64,000 bases of DNA from Methanocaldococcus fervens AG86 (lineage in GTDB: Archaea > AGJL01 > Methanococci > Methanococcales > Methanocaldococcaceae). Positions within the stretch are counted from its first letter, which is position 1. Each line of letters begins with the position of its first letter. Below are positions 39,305 through 59,684 of this stretch, one piece after another. A program made the position numbers and the translations under genes. The notes beneath the pieces were generated by a model that did no database searches, had not been told where the DNA came from, and worked only from the letters and a program-made list of their open reading frames with translations. The stretch spans positions 1,104,363 to 1,168,362 of the forward strand of contig NC_013156.1 in the NCBI RefSeq assembly GCF_000023985.1, read 5' to 3'.

Positions 39305-40231
39305 ATGATAACAACAGTTGTTGGTAGCTATCCAGTAGTTAAAAAAGAAGAAACTTTCTTAGATAAAATAAAAAAAACATTGGGAGTTTATGACGAACAT
39401 AAATACGCCATTGAAAGAGCTGTTAAAGATCAAATTAAAGCTGGAGTTGATATTATAAGTGATGGGCAGGTTAGGGGAGATATGGTTGAGATTTTTACAA
39501 ACAATATGTATGGATTTGAAGGAAAGAGAGTAATTGGTAGAGTAGAGTTTATAAAGCCAATAACAGTTAAAGATATTTTATATGCTAAAAATATGGCTAA
39601 AAAATTAAATCCTAATGTTGAAGTTAAAGGAATTATTACAGGACCTTGCACAATTGCTTCATCTGTTAGGGTTGAGGGATATTATTCAGATAATAAGGAT
39701 GAAAAATTAATTTACGATATTGCCAAAGCACTTAGGAGGGAGGTTGAGGCATTAAAAAATCACGTTCCAATAATACAGATTGATGAACCAATTTTATCAA
39801 CTGGCTTGTATGATTTTGATGTAGCAAGAAAGGCTATAGACATTATTGTTAAAGGTTTAGATGTTACTTTTGCAATGCATGTATGTGGAAACGTTTATAA
39901 CATTATTGATGAGCTAAATAAATTTAATGTAGATATTTTAGACCATGAATTTGCTTCAAATAGGAAAAATTTGGATATTTTGGAATGTATAGAAAAGAAA
40001 GTTGGGTTTGGATGCGTAAATACAAAAGTTAAAAGTGTTGAAAGTGTTGATGAAATAAAGAGCTTGATAGAAGAGGGATTTGAGATATTAAAAAATAATG
40101 AAAAGCTGAATAAAAACTTATCTGAAAATATTCTAATAGATCCTGATTGTGGTATGAGGTTGTTGCCAATAGATGTAGCTTTTAATAAATTAAAAAATAT
40201 GGTTGAGGCAACTAAATTAATAAAAATTTAA
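39305..40231 (+). CDS. Methionine synthase, MetE C-terminal-type (methanogen core enzyme)
   Basis: A 308-residue single-domain version of the cobalamin-independent MetE barrel. In methanogens this enzyme takes the methyl group from methylcobalamin to homocysteine. Zinc ligands are visible at MHVCGNVYN and DPDCGMRLLP, and the substrate pocket at ITGPCTIASS and IQIDEPILS. The start is the ATG at 39305, preceded by GGGTGAAGTTT; an earlier in-frame GTG overlaps the binding site. It converges with the pilin cluster, overlapping the last gene of that cluster by 4 bases. Confidence 0.9.
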   Translation: MITTVVGSYPVVKKEETFLDKIKKTLGVYDEHKYAIERAVKDQIKAGVDIISDGQVRGDMVEIFTNNMYGFEGKRVIGRVEFIKPITVKDILYAKNMAKKLNPNVEVKGIITGPCTIASSVRVEGYYSDNKDEKLIYDIAKALRREVEALKNHVPIIQIDEPILSTGLYDFDVARKAIDIIVKGLDVTFAMHVCGNVYNIIDELNKFNVDILDHEFASNRKNLDILECIEKKVGFGCVNTKVKSVESVDEIKSLIEEGFEILKNNEKLNKNLSENILIDPDCGMRLLPIDVAFNKLKNMVEATKLIKI

Positions 40232-41280
40232 TTTTCTTCTATTAATGGTTTATATCCTACCGAACCCCAACTACTATCTGTTTTATTTGTGTATAAGCCA
40301 ATTATGGAGTAAGAGCCGTTATTAACAAATATGTATTTTCCTTCTTCCCCATAGTACATTAGATTTTTTGATTTTTTCTCTTTGTAGTCTGGATTAGCAT
40401 ATTCTTCACTAATGGTGGTATTATATATATCACCTATATTAACAATCGACTCATTTTGCCTATCAATTGTTGTTGTTGAATTATATAATAGGAGCATTTG
40501 GTTGTTATTGAGTAGTTGACCTTTATTGCATTCTACCAAAATCAATGATTTTTCATCACTTCCATTTCTCCACATTAGTACCTTATAGGGCAAAAGGACG
40601 TAATCATTTCCAATAATCCTAATTTCTACTGGTGATGAAGGATTGTGCATGTGACTATAATCAAAATTTGTGCTGTCTAGCTGTATTATACAATGTATAT
40701 TGTCACCAACATTTGGGAGATCAGTTACAGTTATAATCCTATAATAACCCCAAGTGTAGTAGAATTCATTTAAATAAACGTATGGGTCTGGAATTCTTGA
40801 TAATTTCACATTTTTATTTATATTTAAGGTTCTTGAAGCCCATAATTCTCCATTGTTTAATTTCTTTTTATACTCAATGTATGCTGTAAGTCTAACATTA
40901 ACAACTTCGGGTTCTGCTGTTGAACGAATATTTACGGAACTTATGCTATATGAGATGTTTTCATTTCCTTTTAGATAGTTTAAGGAGTTGCTAGCTTCAT
41001 TTTTAATATATTCTGTTATGTATGTTAAGGCATCCTCTGAATTATCAAAAAATTTTCTTTCATTCATTATCTTGTAGCTTGCATTTACAAATGCATCATT
41101 AACAATTTTATCGATATTTCTTTCTAAGGTATTTACCATATTATCATAATTTAAATCTGCTTTTTTTATTGTTATCTCATCCTCTACAGCCTTTATTTTG
41201 TATTCAATAGTTGAATAAAATACAGCTGAGATAACGAACATTAGCAAAACCAATATTATTGCATTTTGTGAGAAATACAT
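40228..41280 (-). CDS. Membrane-anchored surface protein of the pilin/archaeosortase cluster
   Basis: A 350-residue protein with an N-terminal membrane helix (AIILVLLMFVISAVFYS) and a long extracellular part. Residues about 20-110 are helical (EDEITIKKADLNYDNMVN), the rest is beta-rich and has several N-x-S/T sequons. It looks like a minor pilin or adhesin but lacks the class III consensus. The start is the ATG at 41280 (AGAGGGATTATTT); the in-frame ATG at 41304 lies within the upstream gene. It is the last gene of the cluster. The family is not recognised. Confidence 0.7.
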   Translation of the reverse strand: MYFSQNAIILVLLMFVISAVFYSTIEYKIKAVEDEITIKKADLNYDNMVNTLERNIDKIVNDAFVNASYKIMNERKFFDNSEDALTYITEYIKNEASNSLNYLKGNENISYSISSVNIRSTAEPEVVNVRLTAYIEYKKKLNNGELWASRTLNINKNVKLSRIPDPYVYLNEFYYTWGYYRIITVTDLPNVGDNIHCIIQLDSTNFDYSHMHNPSSPVEIRIIGNDYVLLPYKVLMWRNGSDEKSLILVECNKGQLLNNNQMLLLYNSTTTIDRQNESIVNIGDIYNTTISEEYANPDYKEKKSKNLMYYGEEGKYIFVNNGSYSIIGLYTNKTDSSWGSVGYKPLIEEN

Positions 41281-41293
41281 AAATAATCCCTCT

Positions 41294-41824
41294 TTAGTTT
41301 CCAAATACTCGTAATTTAACTTTTGATGAGGTTATGTTTCTTGATAAATAAACCGGCAAGTGAATTTTATATTGTTTATAATCTTGACAGTTATATGCCT
41401 CATTCCAATCCAAAAATCTCTTATCTGAGATGTCTATGCTGTTTTCATCTCCATAAATTACATACCAACCTTCTTTTCTGTTTAACGTTAATATTACTAA
41501 AACTTCAACGGTGTTATTATAACTCCCACTTTTGTTAATCAGCAAATTTTCATCAATATACAATTCATAATGCTTTAATGGAATTCTATCCTCTAAAAGT
41601 TTCTTAGCTTCATCAGTTCTATTAAAATAATACAAAAGAACAGTGTTTTCTAAAGTTCCATCTTCAGATAGATGTTCCATTGTTGCTAGGCCTTTATCAA
41701 AAATATAATCGGTTTTTATGGCATCAACGTAGTTGTTATTATGTTCAACAACAGAAACTGTCCAATAAGCCATTCCAATGAGTAAAATTGCAGTTCCAAT
41801 AACTAAATCTATAGTGTTAATCAT
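41294..41824 (-). CDS. Small membrane-anchored surface protein
   Basis: A 176-residue protein with one N-terminal helix (IDLVIGTAILLIGMAYWTV) and an extracellular domain rich in charged and aromatic residues. The start ATG overlaps the upstream stop as ATGA (41821-41824), a clear sign of coupling. No domain is recognised. The helix without basic leader is like those of minor pilins. Confidence 0.7.
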   Translation of the reverse strand: MINTIDLVIGTAILLIGMAYWTVSVVEHNNNYVDAIKTDYIFDKGLATMEHLSEDGTLENTVLLYYFNRTDEAKKLLEDRIPLKHYELYIDENLLINKSGSYNNTVEVLVILTLNRKEGWYVIYGDENSIDISDKRFLDWNEAYNCQDYKQYKIHLPVYLSRNITSSKVKLRVFGN

Positions 41825-42705
41825 GATCCCACCAATATGGTGACATTTCTCGGAGATAATGTTAGATAGTAAAAGTTAGCACTATCGTTAGTTTCTATTG
41901 TGAATTCCACGGGATAAGTGGTATTTAAGCTCAATATCCTAATTTCATTTATTCCTTTCTTTAAATTAGGAGTTATTCCAATATCTTTAGATGTTGAGTT
42001 TAATTCTTTTTTGTATATTTGCCCATTCACGGTGAATGTTACATTAAAACTAAGCTCTTCATTATTGGAGATAATCCTTGCAGAAGCGTTTATAATCTTT
42101 TTATCTACTTCAAAGTATATATGGTCCCCATTACACCCATAAACTTTTACTTCTGTTGTATTTTTTGTAACTCCAGTAATTTTTGGAATATAGAGGTTTT
42201 CATTAAAGTAAACTAAGGTACTATAACCACCTGAGGAATTTGGCAATGTAAAATCTGTTACAACGTTTGAGTATACCGAGAAATATTCTTCATTACTGAA
42301 ATTAAATTCTATTCTATTTAGATTAAAGTTATTATTCCCTGAGGCGACTTCATCTAACGTTTCATCGTATTCATTGGGGAGGGTTATAAAATAAAATCCA
42401 TTTAACTCCTCAGTAAAATTATTACATGGATCAAATATTTTCTCATTTAATTTTATTTTATTGGTGAAGTTTTCAATGTAATCTTCGTTATAGCTCCCAG
42501 GGAAATCGTATTTTTTCAAAAATAAATCTTTCAACAACAATATCTTATGAAATTTTTCAGTATCTTTCTTTTCTTCTAAAGATGCCAATATATTGTAATT
42601 GTAAGTTGTATATCCCAAATAAAAAATGCCCATAAAAATAAAAGCAATTATAACCGCCTCATAAGTGAATACATAACCTTTATTTGATTTGAGCTTTTTT
42701 AACAT
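41821..42705 (-). CDS. Pilin-like surface protein with class III-type N terminus
   Basis: A 294-residue protein whose N terminus MLKKLKSNKGYVFTYEAVII resembles a class III signal: basic leader ending in KG, then a helix with the conserved glutamate at position +7 or so. The Q-x-S-x-E pattern is changed to Y-V-F-T-Y-E. The extracellular part is beta-rich with many N-x-S/T sequons (NFTNK, NFTEE, NLNRI, NSTSK). The upstream neighbour is the archaeosortase gene. It probably ends up in a pilus or pilus-tip structure after cleavage by a prepilin peptidase. Confidence 0.7.
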   Translation of the reverse strand: MLKKLKSNKGYVFTYEAVIIAFIFMGIFYLGYTTYNYNILASLEEKKDTEKFHKILLLKDLFLKKYDFPGSYNEDYIENFTNKIKLNEKIFDPCNNFTEELNGFYFITLPNEYDETLDEVASGNNNFNLNRIEFNFSNEEYFSVYSNVVTDFTLPNSSGGYSTLVYFNENLYIPKITGVTKNTTEVKVYGCNGDHIYFEVDKKIINASARIISNNEELSFNVTFTVNGQIYKKELNSTSKDIGITPNLKKGINEIRILSLNTTYPVEFTIETNDSANFYYLTLSPRNVTILVGS

Positions 42706-42755
42706 AATATCACATGTTTGTAATTTATAAATTTATATTTCTTTTAGGTTTATTA

Positions 42756-43235
42756 TTATTTATCTATTAAGTTAATTTTGATATTTTTTACGATTCCTAC
42801 TTTTATTAATATTCTTACCCAGATGATATTTAAAATTAAAACAGTAGGAAAGATAATAAAACTTATCATATCATGTATGAGGGAATAGTTTGTTAGATGT
42901 GCATTTTTTAGGATAAGGATTATCCTCAATATATTTATGAGATTTATTACCAATATTCCAAAACTTGAATATATTAGTTTATATTTCATTGGAGTCTTTG
43001 GCGTAGCAAATACATAAGCTAAAAACAAAGACATTTCAAAGGAGCATGTGCATGCTGGAATTATAGAAAATAACGTTTTGTTATAGATTATGATATTATC
43101 AAAATAATAGGCATTCAAAATAAGTCCTACAATCACTGCTAAATATCTGGATATTTCAAATTCAAAAATTTTTAAAAAAAGATAGATTAAAGGTAATAAA
43201 ATAAGGAAATTTATCAAATATCTTTTATTTTCCAT
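42756..43235 (-). CDS. Archaeosortase/exosortase-family transpeptidase
   Basis: A 159-residue membrane protein with about five helices. The three residues that define the family are in order: Cys62 in the segment PACTCSFEM, Arg104 in NLINILRIIL and His121 in SLIHDMISF. Cys acts as nucleophile, Arg and His complete the site. Archaeosortases cleave C-terminal Pro-rich sorting signals and attach the protein to a lipid. It is shorter than ArtA but similar to the compact subgroup in methanogens. The start overlaps the preceding small pilin gene by 11 bases. The likely substrate is the PKD protein two genes upstream. Confidence 0.75.
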   Translation of the reverse strand: MENKRYLINFLILLPLIYLFLKIFEFEISRYLAVIVGLILNAYYFDNIIIYNKTLFSIIPACTCSFEMSLFLAYVFATPKTPMKYKLIYSSFGILVINLINILRIILILKNAHLTNYSLIHDMISFIIFPTVLILNIIWVRILIKVGIVKNIKINLIDK

Positions 43236-43452
43236 TTGCGGTAACCTCTTTTACCTTATCTACTTGTTGCATGACTTTATTGTTGGTAGCAATTTCTCCA
43301 GAAACACTAATTTCTTTGGCAGTTGTTGATGATGTTTTTACAGTTTTCAAATAATAAAATCCAACTATTGAAGCTGTAGCGATAATACCAGCTAATAACA
43401 AAGCAAATTCTAAGCTAATCTGACCTTTATTTGAAAATATTTTTTTAAACAT
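43225..43452 (-). CDS. Short pilin with class III signal peptide
   Basis: A 75-residue protein: leader [10 protein letters not shown], then the perfect class III motif [17 protein letters not shown], and a short hydrophilic tail with Ser/Thr and Lys. This is the form of a major type IV-like pilin processed by an EppA-type peptidase. It overlaps the archaeosortase start by 11 bases and follows the PKD gene with an 8-base overlap. In mature form it would have about 65 residues. Confidence 0.85.
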
Positions 43453-46400
43453 GTTTCCACCTTGATATTTGAATAATAATTATTACAGTGGTTATAAACA
43501 TTAAGATTTTAATTGGTATTGGAATTGGAATACTTTTTTTATTTTCACCAATTGAGACAAATCTTACTGTTGAGTCACTGTATCCATCATCATCCACAAC
43601 AGTTAATCTTGCAGTATATACACCTTTTTTAGTATAGATGTGGCTGGTTTTTGGATTGGGCGGATGTTCATAAGTTCCATTTACAGAAATAATTGTTCCA
43701 TCTCCAAAGTCCCATATATATTTTACAATTTTTCCATCAATGTCGTAGGATTCCGAAGCATCGAAATATACCATAGTCCCATTTATTGTAAAATTAAATT
43801 TTGCTATTGGAGGATAGTTTCCTTCTCCCTTAACCAATACTATTTTTGATATGGAATCTTTCAAACCTATATTATTCCAAACAATTAATTTTACAACATA
43901 TATTCCTTCTTTTGTGTATTTATGCAATGGATTTTTTTGTGTTGATGTCGTTCCATCTCCAAAGTTCCACAGCCATTTAACTATATTTCCAGGATTGGAT
44001 ATTGATCTATCTACAAAATTTATATTTTGATCAACTACGACCATAGAAGGGCCTTCAAAATCTGCTTTAATGTAATATACGGTTATTGTTTTTGACATTA
44101 TGGATGATGCATTTAATTCATCGTAAACTGTAAGACTCACGTTATAAACACCCTCTTCCTTATACACATGAGTTACTATTGGATCGGTAGTTTCTATAAC
44201 TTCTCCATCTCCAAAATCCCATCTGTATAATTTAATAGCCCCTTCTGGATCGTAAGAAGATAACGCATTAAATATAACCTCCTCATTAACTTTTGGATGT
44301 TTTGGAGAATACATGAATTCAGCAGTAGGGAGAGAGTTTCTAACTTCAAAGTTAACTTCAATGGAATTTTTATCGCCCATTCCATCCCAAACAGTCAGTA
44401 TTGTAGTATAATTGCCAATGTTAAATTTATGTGATACTGTTTTTAACTCATTTGATGAATAATTCCAAACAAGAGCTCCAGAAGAATTATAAACCGTTAA
44501 GTTGAATCCATAGATTTTTGCCATTGGTGAACTTGGAGGTATAGTATAGTTGCCTATTATATTACCATAGGAATTATATTCAGGAATATTCCTACTAGCA
44601 TCTGGGTCGTAGGTATTTAATGGATTGAAAAATATTGTATCCTTATAGCTTGCAGGATTTGGATAAATATAGAGTTTAGCTATTGGATTTTTGTTGTCAA
44701 TTATATAAACTGTTTTCATATTTTTTGCGGTATATACTTTCATATAGATTGGATAAACCCCTTCTGAAGTATATGTATGATTGAATGAATATGGTGAAGT
44801 TTTAGGCCTTATCCAAATACTACTGCCATCTCCAAAATATATATAATGCCGTAACCTTGCCCAAGATGCAGGTTCCATTATTGTTATGTTAATTGGATAG
44901 TTTGTAGGAGCCAATGTAGGAGAGGCATAAATTTGAGGATAACTACTATAACCCCCAACTCCAATTGGTGGAGGAATTCCAACTTCTATATTCCCATTTT
45001 CATCTATAACAAATACATGAGGATAATACAAACCCCTTGAGGAATATCTATGTGTAGGAGATTTTTCAAATGAAAATGTTCCATCTCCAAAACACCACAT
45101 TATGAATATTGGATTTCCATAAGGTGAGCAGTCAAATTCAACATTTTCATTTACATTAACTTCTGTTGGAGTAGCAGTTGCTGTTATATCAATATAATAG
45201 CCATCTTTTAGCTTTACATTCAATTTTGGTGTTGAAACTACATCTGAATAATAATACAAATTAACAGTATGATTTTCTTTAATATATTCGTAATCATAAG
45301 ATGTTTTGTCATGGGATACTGATGGATAAAAATTATATCTTGTATTTCCCACATCATCCACAACTATAAAGTTGAGAGTATCTGACTTCCACCAACTACC
45401 TGACCCATAACTCATCCAGAAAAATGGCCACATAAATGGGAATTTATATCTATGGTATGCAGGAGTAAAATAATCTTTATATGTATAGTAAGTTTCTGTT
45501 CCATCACCAAAATCCCACTTCCAATATAATCCCCAAGCTCCTGACATTTCAAACTTAATACTATCATCAACCCGGTATGTTACTTTATAAGGGTCAGTAT
45601 ATGCATTTCCTCTATTGTCGTTATCGTTTCCAGAACTATTATATACATAAGTATAAGCCTCTCCATTATAATGGCTTGGTCCAGTAACCCAGTAAATATA
45701 ACCTCCTCTCTGTCTTTTTACTTTAATTCCTTCATCCAAATAGCCGACCATTACTCTACCAAAATAATCAACAACCAGAACCCTTGGATAATATATTCCA
45801 GGTCTGTCATATACGTGGATAGGAGATTTTTCAAATGAAAATGTTCCATCTCCAAAACTCCAAACATTAAATATAATATGCCTACTAACTGAATAATTAA
45901 ATTTAACGATATCTCCTTCAACAATCTCATTTTTATTAGCATTTACTGTTACCTTCTCAGTATCTACATCTAGTCCAATAAATTTCATGTTTATGGTATT
46001 TTCTGAGTAATATTTTACAATAACAGTGTTGTTTACACTATTGTAATAGATGTCCCAGCTTGTTTTTGAGTTTGACGGGCTGCCATTAAATATATATTTG
46101 GTTGTCTGCACATCCCCAACAACAAGCCAGTTATAAGTTAATGATTTTGAATATCCTGTATTATTCAAATAGCCACACCAAGCTACTGGGTAAGGGAAGG
46201 GAAATTCATAAACATGTGTTATTTCCCTGTAATTTCCATAATCAGTTTCAGTTAAATCTCCAAAATCCCATTTTATAGCACCATTCTCTAAGGTCTCATT
46301 AGCTATAGAATCGGGGGCTAAAGCTTCAAATCTTATTGTATCATTTACATTATATGTGATAATGTAGGGATTAGTATTTGAGTCTCCAGAACTGTTCGTT

Positions 46401-46501
46401 ATATTCATAGTGTTCGGATGAATTTGGATTATATATCCGTTTGATAATGTTAATGCTAAAAATAAACTAAATAATAGAATTATTAAAGATTTGATATGCA
46501 T
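43445..46501 (-). CDS. PKD-repeat surface protein with archaeosortase-like sorting tail
   Basis: A protein of about 1018 residues. It has a signal peptide ([18 protein letters not shown]) and eight PKD-type FGD motifs, among them [56 protein letters not shown] and WDFGDGTI. The N-terminal half contains two long similar units of about 260 residues each, the second beginning near residue 270. The C terminus is a three-part tail: Pro-rich [10 protein letters not shown], a membrane helix [14 protein letters not shown], and basic SRWKHV. That is how archaeosortase substrates end. The start is the ATG at 46501 after GGTGAGATT. Many N-x-S/T sites are present. Likely an abundant cell-surface or adhesion protein. 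Confidence 0.85.
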
Positions 46502-46520
46502 AATCTCACCATAATATTGA

Positions 46521-46958
46521 TTAGCTAACATTTACTTCTATTTTTTTTGAGACATAAACCGTTCTTCCATTTATATTTGTAGTTATGACTATATTATTCC
46601 CTATGTCTACATTTGAAGGGCTCACATACCCTCCAATTGTAACTCCATTTTCATTGGGAGTGAATGTTACGACTGTGTCACCATAGACATTAATTTTTTT
46701 ATTTGAAATTGTTATTTCATAATCAATAGAACCTATAGGTTTTAATATATAAAATATTGTTTTATTAGTTGTATAAGCAAGGATTGCGTAGTTTTCAAAT
46801 GTATCTGCTATACTGTGCATCCTATCCACAATTAAAGCATCTGTTGTGCTATTTGAAAATTTAAGCTCCACATTATATAAAAATAGAGAAACTAACATTA
46901 AAAACATCATTGCAAGTATGAAATCTAATGATATCTGTCCTTTTTCTGTTTTGAACAT
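46521..46958 (-). CDS. Pilin-like protein with class III signal peptide
   Basis: A 145-residue protein with leader MFKTEKG followed by [20 protein letters not shown], a class III signal with Asp replacing the usual Glu. The extracellular part is beta-rich and may form one Ig-like domain ([19 protein letters not shown]). It is the first gene of the cluster, upstream of the PKD gene. A promoter is probable in the AT-rich 46959-47050 region. Confidence 0.8.
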
Positions 46959-47126
46959 ATTTAAACCCCACTAAATTTAGTGTTATAATATAATTTTTTG
47001 GTCAAATTGATATATAAAAATTAACAATAAAATAATATTAATTAATCTATTTATTTAAATTCATAAATATTAATTAAATAAAAAATAAATTTGAAATATT
47101 AAAAAGAAGTTATTTATTCAGAGGAG

Positions 47127-59624: not shown

Positions 59625-59684
59625 TTGGCGATGATGAGAATTTCGCTATCTGATTTGTGATGACTACCCCCGCGGCTGAGCCAA
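59625..59684 (+). ncRNA. C/D box small RNA (2'-O-methylation guide)
   Basis: Box C is ATGATGA (59631-59637), D' is CTGA (59650-59653), C' is GTGATGA (59657-59663) and D is CTGA (59676-59679). Both guide spacers are exactly 12 nt, as in archaeal sRNAs. A perfect terminal stem TTGGC (59625-59629) / GCCAA (59680-59684) closes the kink-turn. The D' guide GAATTTCGCTAT pairs with 23S rRNA GUAGCGAAAUUC (around E. coli 1930-1941) with one G-U pair; the N+5 rule predicts methylation at C1934. I did not find the target of the D guide CTACCCCCGCGG. It lies 6 bases after the ATPase stop, in its 3' UTR, and 5 bases from the tfrA stop. Confidence 0.9.

Follow-up and report, generated by a model that had tools for sequence, protein, structure and literature searches.

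An archaeosortase D/PIP-CTERM cassette in an Epd pilus operon of Methanocaldococcus fervens

An operon of sorting and pilus genes

We analysed a stretch of 64,000 nucleotides from the genome of Methanocaldococcus fervens AG86 (NC_013156.1, positions 1,104,363 to 1,168,362; hereafter the window), in which a minus-strand operon of seven genes (40228-46958) combines an archaeosortase and its putative substrate with genes for minor pilins and tip proteins of the Epd pilus, the clade 1 archaeal type IV pilus of Methanococcus maripaludis. A first-pass annotation, made from the sequence alone, had described seven overlapping or abutting genes at this place, and all seven open reading frames (ORFs) are present at the same coordinates and on the same strand, apart from two gene starts that need shifting. 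In the order of transcription they encode a class III pilin of 145 amino acids (aa), a PKD-repeat protein of about 1018 aa, a second class III pilin of 75 aa, a 159-aa archaeosortase, and proteins of 294, 176 and 350 aa (Table 1); the 145- and 75-aa proteins are the two pilins that the annotation had considered clear cases. Adjacent genes overlap or abut, and the largest gap, of 50 base pairs (bp), lies between the archaeosortase gene and that of the 294-aa protein. The PKD gene most likely starts at the ATG at 46501, behind a GGTGA, which yields 1018 aa and no overlap with the upstream gene, and the start of the last gene should be moved from the TTG at 41304 to the ATG at 41280 because the latter is conserved in its relatives. 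The operon is flanked by housekeeping genes, a methionine-synthase-like (MetE-like) gene on the opposite strand and a thermosome gene, and appears to have a promoter of its own, as predicted by eye from the TATA-like stretch in the AT-rich 168 bp between it and the thermosome gene. A chance cluster of genes is ruled out, as the gene order is conserved across genera.

Table 1. Features of the operon and its leader, in window coordinates and in the order of transcription
Feature	Position	Strand	Basis or remark
Operon leader, AT-rich intergenic region, 168 bp	46959..47126	-	TATA-like TTTTATATATC and ribosome-binding-like TGGGGT before the ATG; read by eye
EpdC ortholog, minor pilin with class III signal, 145 aa	46521..46958	-	motif KGQISLDF
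PKD-repeat surface protein, signal peptide at the N-terminus and PIP-CTERM at the C-terminus, 1018 aa	43445..46501	-	Pfam PKD_4; ORF open to 46531
PIP-CTERM sorting signal, 29 letters	43448..43531	-	TIGR04173, 42.7 bits (cutoff 30)
Small class III pilin dedicated to ArtD/PIP-CTERM, 75 aa	43225..43452	-	TIGR04205, 129.5 bits (cutoff 65)
Archaeosortase D, 159 aa	42756..43235	-	TIGR04175, 227.9 bits (cutoff 125)
Cys62 codon of archaeosortase D	43050-43052	-	
Arg104 codon of archaeosortase D	42924-42926	-	
His121 codon of archaeosortase D	42873-42875	-	
DUF2341-type minor pilin/tip protein, short form, 294 aa	41821..42705	-	ortholog of MMJJ_08210
EpdH ortholog, N-anchored, pilin-like, 176 aa	41294..41824	-	matches G014:755516-756037 (epdH)
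EpdI ortholog, short form, 350 aa	40228..41280	-	matches G014:754401-755501 (epdI); ORF open to TTG 41304

The archaeosortase is a member of the archaeosortase D (ArtD) family, whose model TIGR04175 it matches from end to end (positions 1-150 of 150), and it also scores over the cutoff of the superfamily model TIGR04178. Cys62, Arg104 and His121, already singled out in the first-pass annotation, are invariant in 15/15 orthologs. AlphaFold predicts a mostly helical protein of transmembrane type (predicted local distance difference test, pLDDT, 87.8), for which neither a fold search nor a sequence search of the PDB was informative. Archaeosortase E (ArtE, TIGR04124) is related in sequence and shares the catalytic signature, yet forms a separate family, ArtD reaching 53 bits against the ArtE cutoff of 95 bits.

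The PKD protein has a signal-peptide-like N-terminus, matches Pfam PKD_4 in eight stretches (4.6e-83) and has orthologs in 15 genomes. Its tail, IPIPIPIK, had been set apart in the first-pass annotation from the PGF, PEF and VPxxxP signals; the match to TIGR04173 (residues 1001-1027 in match numbering), which is far above chance, identifies it as the known PIP-CTERM and rules out a new sorting signal. It is the sole PIP-CTERM over cutoff in the genome, the runner-up reaching 12.6 bits. The 75-aa pilin belongs to TIGR04205, which NCBIfam names 'class III signal peptide domain-containing protein, archaeosortase D/PIP-CTERM system-associated'. A system of this enzyme, tail and pilin is already catalogued in NCBIfam. 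The trio described here is identical to it in kind, with all members over cutoff and adjacent, and Methanocaldococcus jannaschii, our control genome, also has all three; the four flanking Epd genes of our operon, on the other hand, fall outside the NCBIfam family names of that system. With archaeosortase A (ArtA) and PGF-CTERM of Haloferax volcanii the pair shares its superfamily and the build of the tail (motif, helix, basic end), but ArtA has several substrates, including the S-layer glycoprotein, while ArtD here would have one.

Enzyme, tail and small pilin: co-occurrence and shared history

Across 36 Methanococcales genomes (a search at the level of the phylum gave the identical 36), ArtD scores over its cutoff in 15, and exactly those 15 also have the TIGR04205 pilin over cutoff. 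The PIP tail, searched at E<=0.01, is over cutoff in 13 of the ArtD genomes, below it at 23.6 bits in one (G008), and in another (G012) was not caught by the hidden Markov model (HMM) and was recognised by eye as FSIPVPIYIHIMI. The trio is together in 15/36 genomes and jointly absent in 21/36. A dedicated pair of one enzyme and one substrate had been proposed in the first-pass annotation, and tail homologues without any archaeosortase were named there as evidence to the contrary; in the 21 genomes lacking ArtD, none was found at this threshold. With co-occurrence without exception and a single PIP-CTERM in the genome, ArtD and PIP-CTERM behave as a dedicated pair of one enzyme and one substrate. 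The members of the trio are kept even where their arrangement varies: in G008 the PKD gene lies on another contig than the pilin and ArtD genes, neither locus being near a contig end, and in G035, from another family, the N-terminal two thirds of the PKD protein are replaced by an unrelated repeat-rich region, with the final PKD domains and the PIP tail retained (L072 7569-9902). A scan of genome contigs returned four loci only, under titles naming Methanocaldococcus (2), 'Methanococci archaeon' (1) and 'archaeon' (1).

Mantel tests on 13 genomes show that the distances between ArtD sequences are correlated with those between tails (r=0.73, p=0.0002) and between 75-aa pilins (r=0.80, p=0.0002), and are correlated neither with those of the PKD body (r=0.14, p=0.20) nor with those of EpdH (r=0.17, p=0.18). 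Corrected for the adjacent PKD domain, the correlation between enzyme and tail amounts to a partial r of 0.35 (p=0.006). Within the genus (9 genomes), ArtD is correlated with the neighbouring MetE-like gene at r=0.61, and with the tail at r=0.74 after allowing for that gene. The ArtD tree resolves two types within Methanocaldococcus, and the enzymes of the two carriers from another family nest within type I, one of them (G035) as sister of G001 (support 96/94), which points to transfer of the block of PKD end, pilin and ArtD between lineages.

Position of the cassette among Epd pilus genes

The other four genes of the operon are orthologs of M. maripaludis Epd genes in the same order, namely epdC, the DUF2341-type gene, epdH and epdI, in line with the earlier suggestion that the sorting system is joined to a type IV-like pilus. 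Their orthology is established through a genome (G014) in which the coordinates of the matches coincide with MMJJ_08190-08240, its equation with M. maripaludis JJ resting on the agreement of its coordinates with a published insertion table; there, the family HMM of the 145-aa protein matches EpdC with E=5e-39. That the three proteins initially listed as anchored surface proteins are unrelated adhesins is ruled out, as they are the DUF2341-type pilin, EpdH and EpdI. Pfam returned nothing informative for the 145-, 176- and 294-aa proteins. The N-terminus of the 294-aa protein (KGYVFTYEA) is pilin-like but degenerate, and those of the 176- and 350-aa proteins are anchors in which no prepilin cleavage motif is present. 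Full profile matches to EpdH, always in single copy, are found in 32/36 genomes and to EpdI in 33/36, in both cases including genomes without ArtD, and the AlphaFold model of EpdH (pLDDT 80.6) has the pilin-like layout of a 51-residue N-terminal helix (residues 4-54) followed by a β domain.

Two differences from the M. maripaludis locus concern the pilus genes themselves. First, the locus is split in two here, with EppA-, EpdA- and EpdF-like ORFs, recognised by eye from gene order and N-termini, at about 870-875 kb of the same genome (G000:C1). Second, the DUF2341-type protein and EpdI are without their lectin-like parts, a label that we take from the DUF2341 match and from general knowledge of what follows that domain: the former is missing an insert of about 330 aa, present in some orthologs and absent from others (long forms match DUF2341 with 4.2e-26), and the latter has lost most of the corresponding part (gap at alignment columns ~304-514). 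Segments of this kind, of ~170-330 aa, are found in most relatives, and the insert in the DUF2341-type protein is patchy across the order. The DUF2341 gene of the genome with the M. maripaludis coordinates appears as a 561-aa ORF and a 58-aa ORF with the pilin-like N-terminus, owing to a frameshift, an error or a genuine split (L093 8049-9734 and 9743-9919).

The third difference is the cassette of PKD, pilin and ArtD genes, which sits between epdC and the DUF2341 gene, a place that it takes in almost every ArtD genome. In G022, which belongs to the genus of the carrier G023, the two genes are adjacent and 66 bp apart, and form an empty site. In G014-G017 the slot is filled by MMJJ_08230 or its ortholog. 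A 2016 census of archaeal pili presumes DUF2341 proteins to be the tip adhesins of this pilus class, and its text mentions neither sortases nor PKD (PMC4858521). A transposon screen of M. maripaludis yielded transformation-defective insertion mutants of epdI, epdH, the DUF2341 gene, MMJJ_08230 and epdC (PMC10133366), and the published insertion coordinates lie within the orthologs of our operon genes.

A proposed parallel arrangement for archaeosortase E

MMJJ_08230 combines a signal peptide and a small domain with a tail of KLPI, helix and basic residues. In its relatives across the order, P-[IV] likewise precedes a helix, usually with basic residues behind it. This type of tail is not recognised by any NCBIfam model, and searching with the short K-L-P-I motif on its own gave mostly noise; the search with the full-length family was informative and yielded L093 9921-10451, a member in our genome (L146 3635-4156, C1 at about 484 kb) and 24 others. 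The family and ArtE occur together in 25 genomes, 7 have neither, and the 4 discordant genomes are all below 90% completeness (Fisher p=1.4e-4, shared ancestry ignored). ArtE of M. fervens (TIGR04124, 219 bits; C1:1171874-1172326, L073 7833-8411) is encoded outside the window, about 24 kb from ArtD, between thiL and an rRNA-methyltransferase-like gene and with no substrate adjacent. In G009 the ArtE-substrate-like protein extends beyond the tail, in an open frame of 505 aa with more hydrophobic segments (L165 1587-3104).

On these grounds we propose MMJJ_08230 as a substrate of ArtE, which would provide this enzyme with a candidate substrate separate from that of ArtD and with a mostly K-x-P-[IV] tail. 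ArtE, too, scored in the M. maripaludis screen; deletion of artE abolishes transformation, which complementation restores, and four insertions are listed for MMJJ_08230 in the same study, of which the coordinate 753,363 is probably a misprint (PMC10133366); these insertions may be polar on the downstream epd genes. If the pairing holds, it accounts for the loss of transformation in the artE deletion. More generally, and with chances that we put somewhat short of even, archaeosortase-anchored proteins may be working parts of the Methanococcales Epd pilus and DNA-uptake machine, through ArtD and the PKD rod in Methanocaldococcus and through ArtE and the MMJJ_08230 family, with its mostly K-x-P-[IV] tails, across the order.

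Proposed function and alternatives

We consider it probable that the operon is the minor-pilin and tip half of the Epd pilus with an inserted cassette of PKD protein, small pilin and ArtD, and that ArtD clips and lipid-anchors a PKD rod that serves the pilus in adhesion or DNA capture. The PKD protein would be exported by means of its N-terminal signal and retained by its C-terminal helix; ArtD would recognise the [IV]-P-[IV]-P signal, cleave the protein at the PIP motif with Cys62, assisted by Arg104 and His121, and join the newly formed C-terminus to a lipid of the membrane. The outcome would be a chain of Ig-like PKD domains, tethered to the outer face of the membrane beside the pilus base, which may assist the Epd pilus in attaching or in capturing DNA. 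We attribute cleavage and lipid anchoring to ArtD by analogy, because ArtA of H. volcanii is responsible for the proteolysis and lipid anchoring of surface proteins (PMC7157517), and the putative role of rod and enzyme with the pilus and in DNA uptake is based on M. maripaludis genetics and the operon context. As the lectin-like parts of the DUF2341 protein and EpdI are lost, one may speculate that the pilus of this genome leans more on the PKD protein. Of the reading in the first-pass annotation we retain a dedicated sorting pair that goes with a type IV-like pilus, and give up the new tail signal, the trio being in NCBIfam already.

Several observations speak against this interpretation. We found no biochemistry of ArtD in the literature; a fold search of the PDB gave no significant match to the EpdH model; and the Epd ATPase (EpdL) and platform genes (EpdJ/EpdK) were not located here, in analyses that included no search aimed at them. 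The phenotypes come from M. maripaludis (PMC10133366), which has ArtE and lacks ArtD, and in which pilus mutants fail transformation anyway. Eleven genomes with ArtE and an epdH gene have no ArtD, so the cassette is dispensable for a basic Epd pilus. Finally, the stretch from the last PKD domain through tail and pilin to ArtD is unbroken in most genomes, and linkage alone may explain the shared history of these parts, so that the correlations support a cassette and are not proof of coevolution between enzyme and substrate.

Alternatively, ArtD and the PKD protein could be an independent surface-anchoring system, an adhesin or S-layer accessory that merely shares its expression with the Epd minor pilins and is no part of the pilus, be it in structure or in function. 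Epd genes are present in 17-18 genomes without ArtD, where the pilus does not need the cassette, the history of the cassette is unlike that of epdH, and G008 has the pilin/ArtD pair, the PKD gene, epdH and epdI each on a contig of its own. We nevertheless find such independence unlikely, given that one of the cassette's genes encodes a dedicated class III pilin, that almost every ArtD genome has the cassette at the same junction, and that M. maripaludis and its relatives have another sorting-signal protein there, which scored in the transformation screen. We give a similarly low probability to a second, specialised pilus that has the 75-aa pilin as its major subunit and the anchored PKD protein as its tip or base, EpdC, EpdH and EpdI being shared by the two filaments: major pilins of this class are stand-alone proteins of ~70 aa (PMC4858521), the 75-aa pilin and ArtD always go together, and the genome has several other small pilins, but EpdH and EpdI are single copy in the genome and the operon is without a second assembly machinery. 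That the C-terminal helix of the PKD protein is an ordinary membrane anchor and ArtD has another job would agree with the lack, in the literature searched, of cleavage or a lipid for any ArtD substrate, but is highly improbable in view of the invariant catalytic residues, the one-to-one co-occurrence of enzyme and tail, and the way in which the tail subtype follows the enzyme subtype, also when allowing for the adjacent PKD domain.

The location of the ArtD cassette in the Epd pilus operon and the parallel arrangement of ArtE and MMJJ_08230 appear to be undescribed in the literature searched. The transposon screen raised the question of why an archaeosortase is essential for archaeal natural transformation, and action of the sorting enzymes on proteins encoded within the pilus operon is a candidate answer, for which ArtE and MMJJ_08230 offer a concrete candidate pair of enzyme and substrate in a genetically tractable organism. 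ArtD and PIP-CTERM, so far family names only, gain a functional setting.

Additional observations

Larger class III-signal proteins, some of them CARDB- or PKD-like, are encoded beside the operon in several relatives (L081 1371-2300; L058 12026-13753; L063 432-2165; L068 1878-3380; L070 12264-13874); that of M. fervens is located outside the window, about 33 kb from the operon. Elsewhere in the window, positions 59627-59681 match the C/D-box snoRNA sR39 (Rfam RF01122, 68.4 bits).

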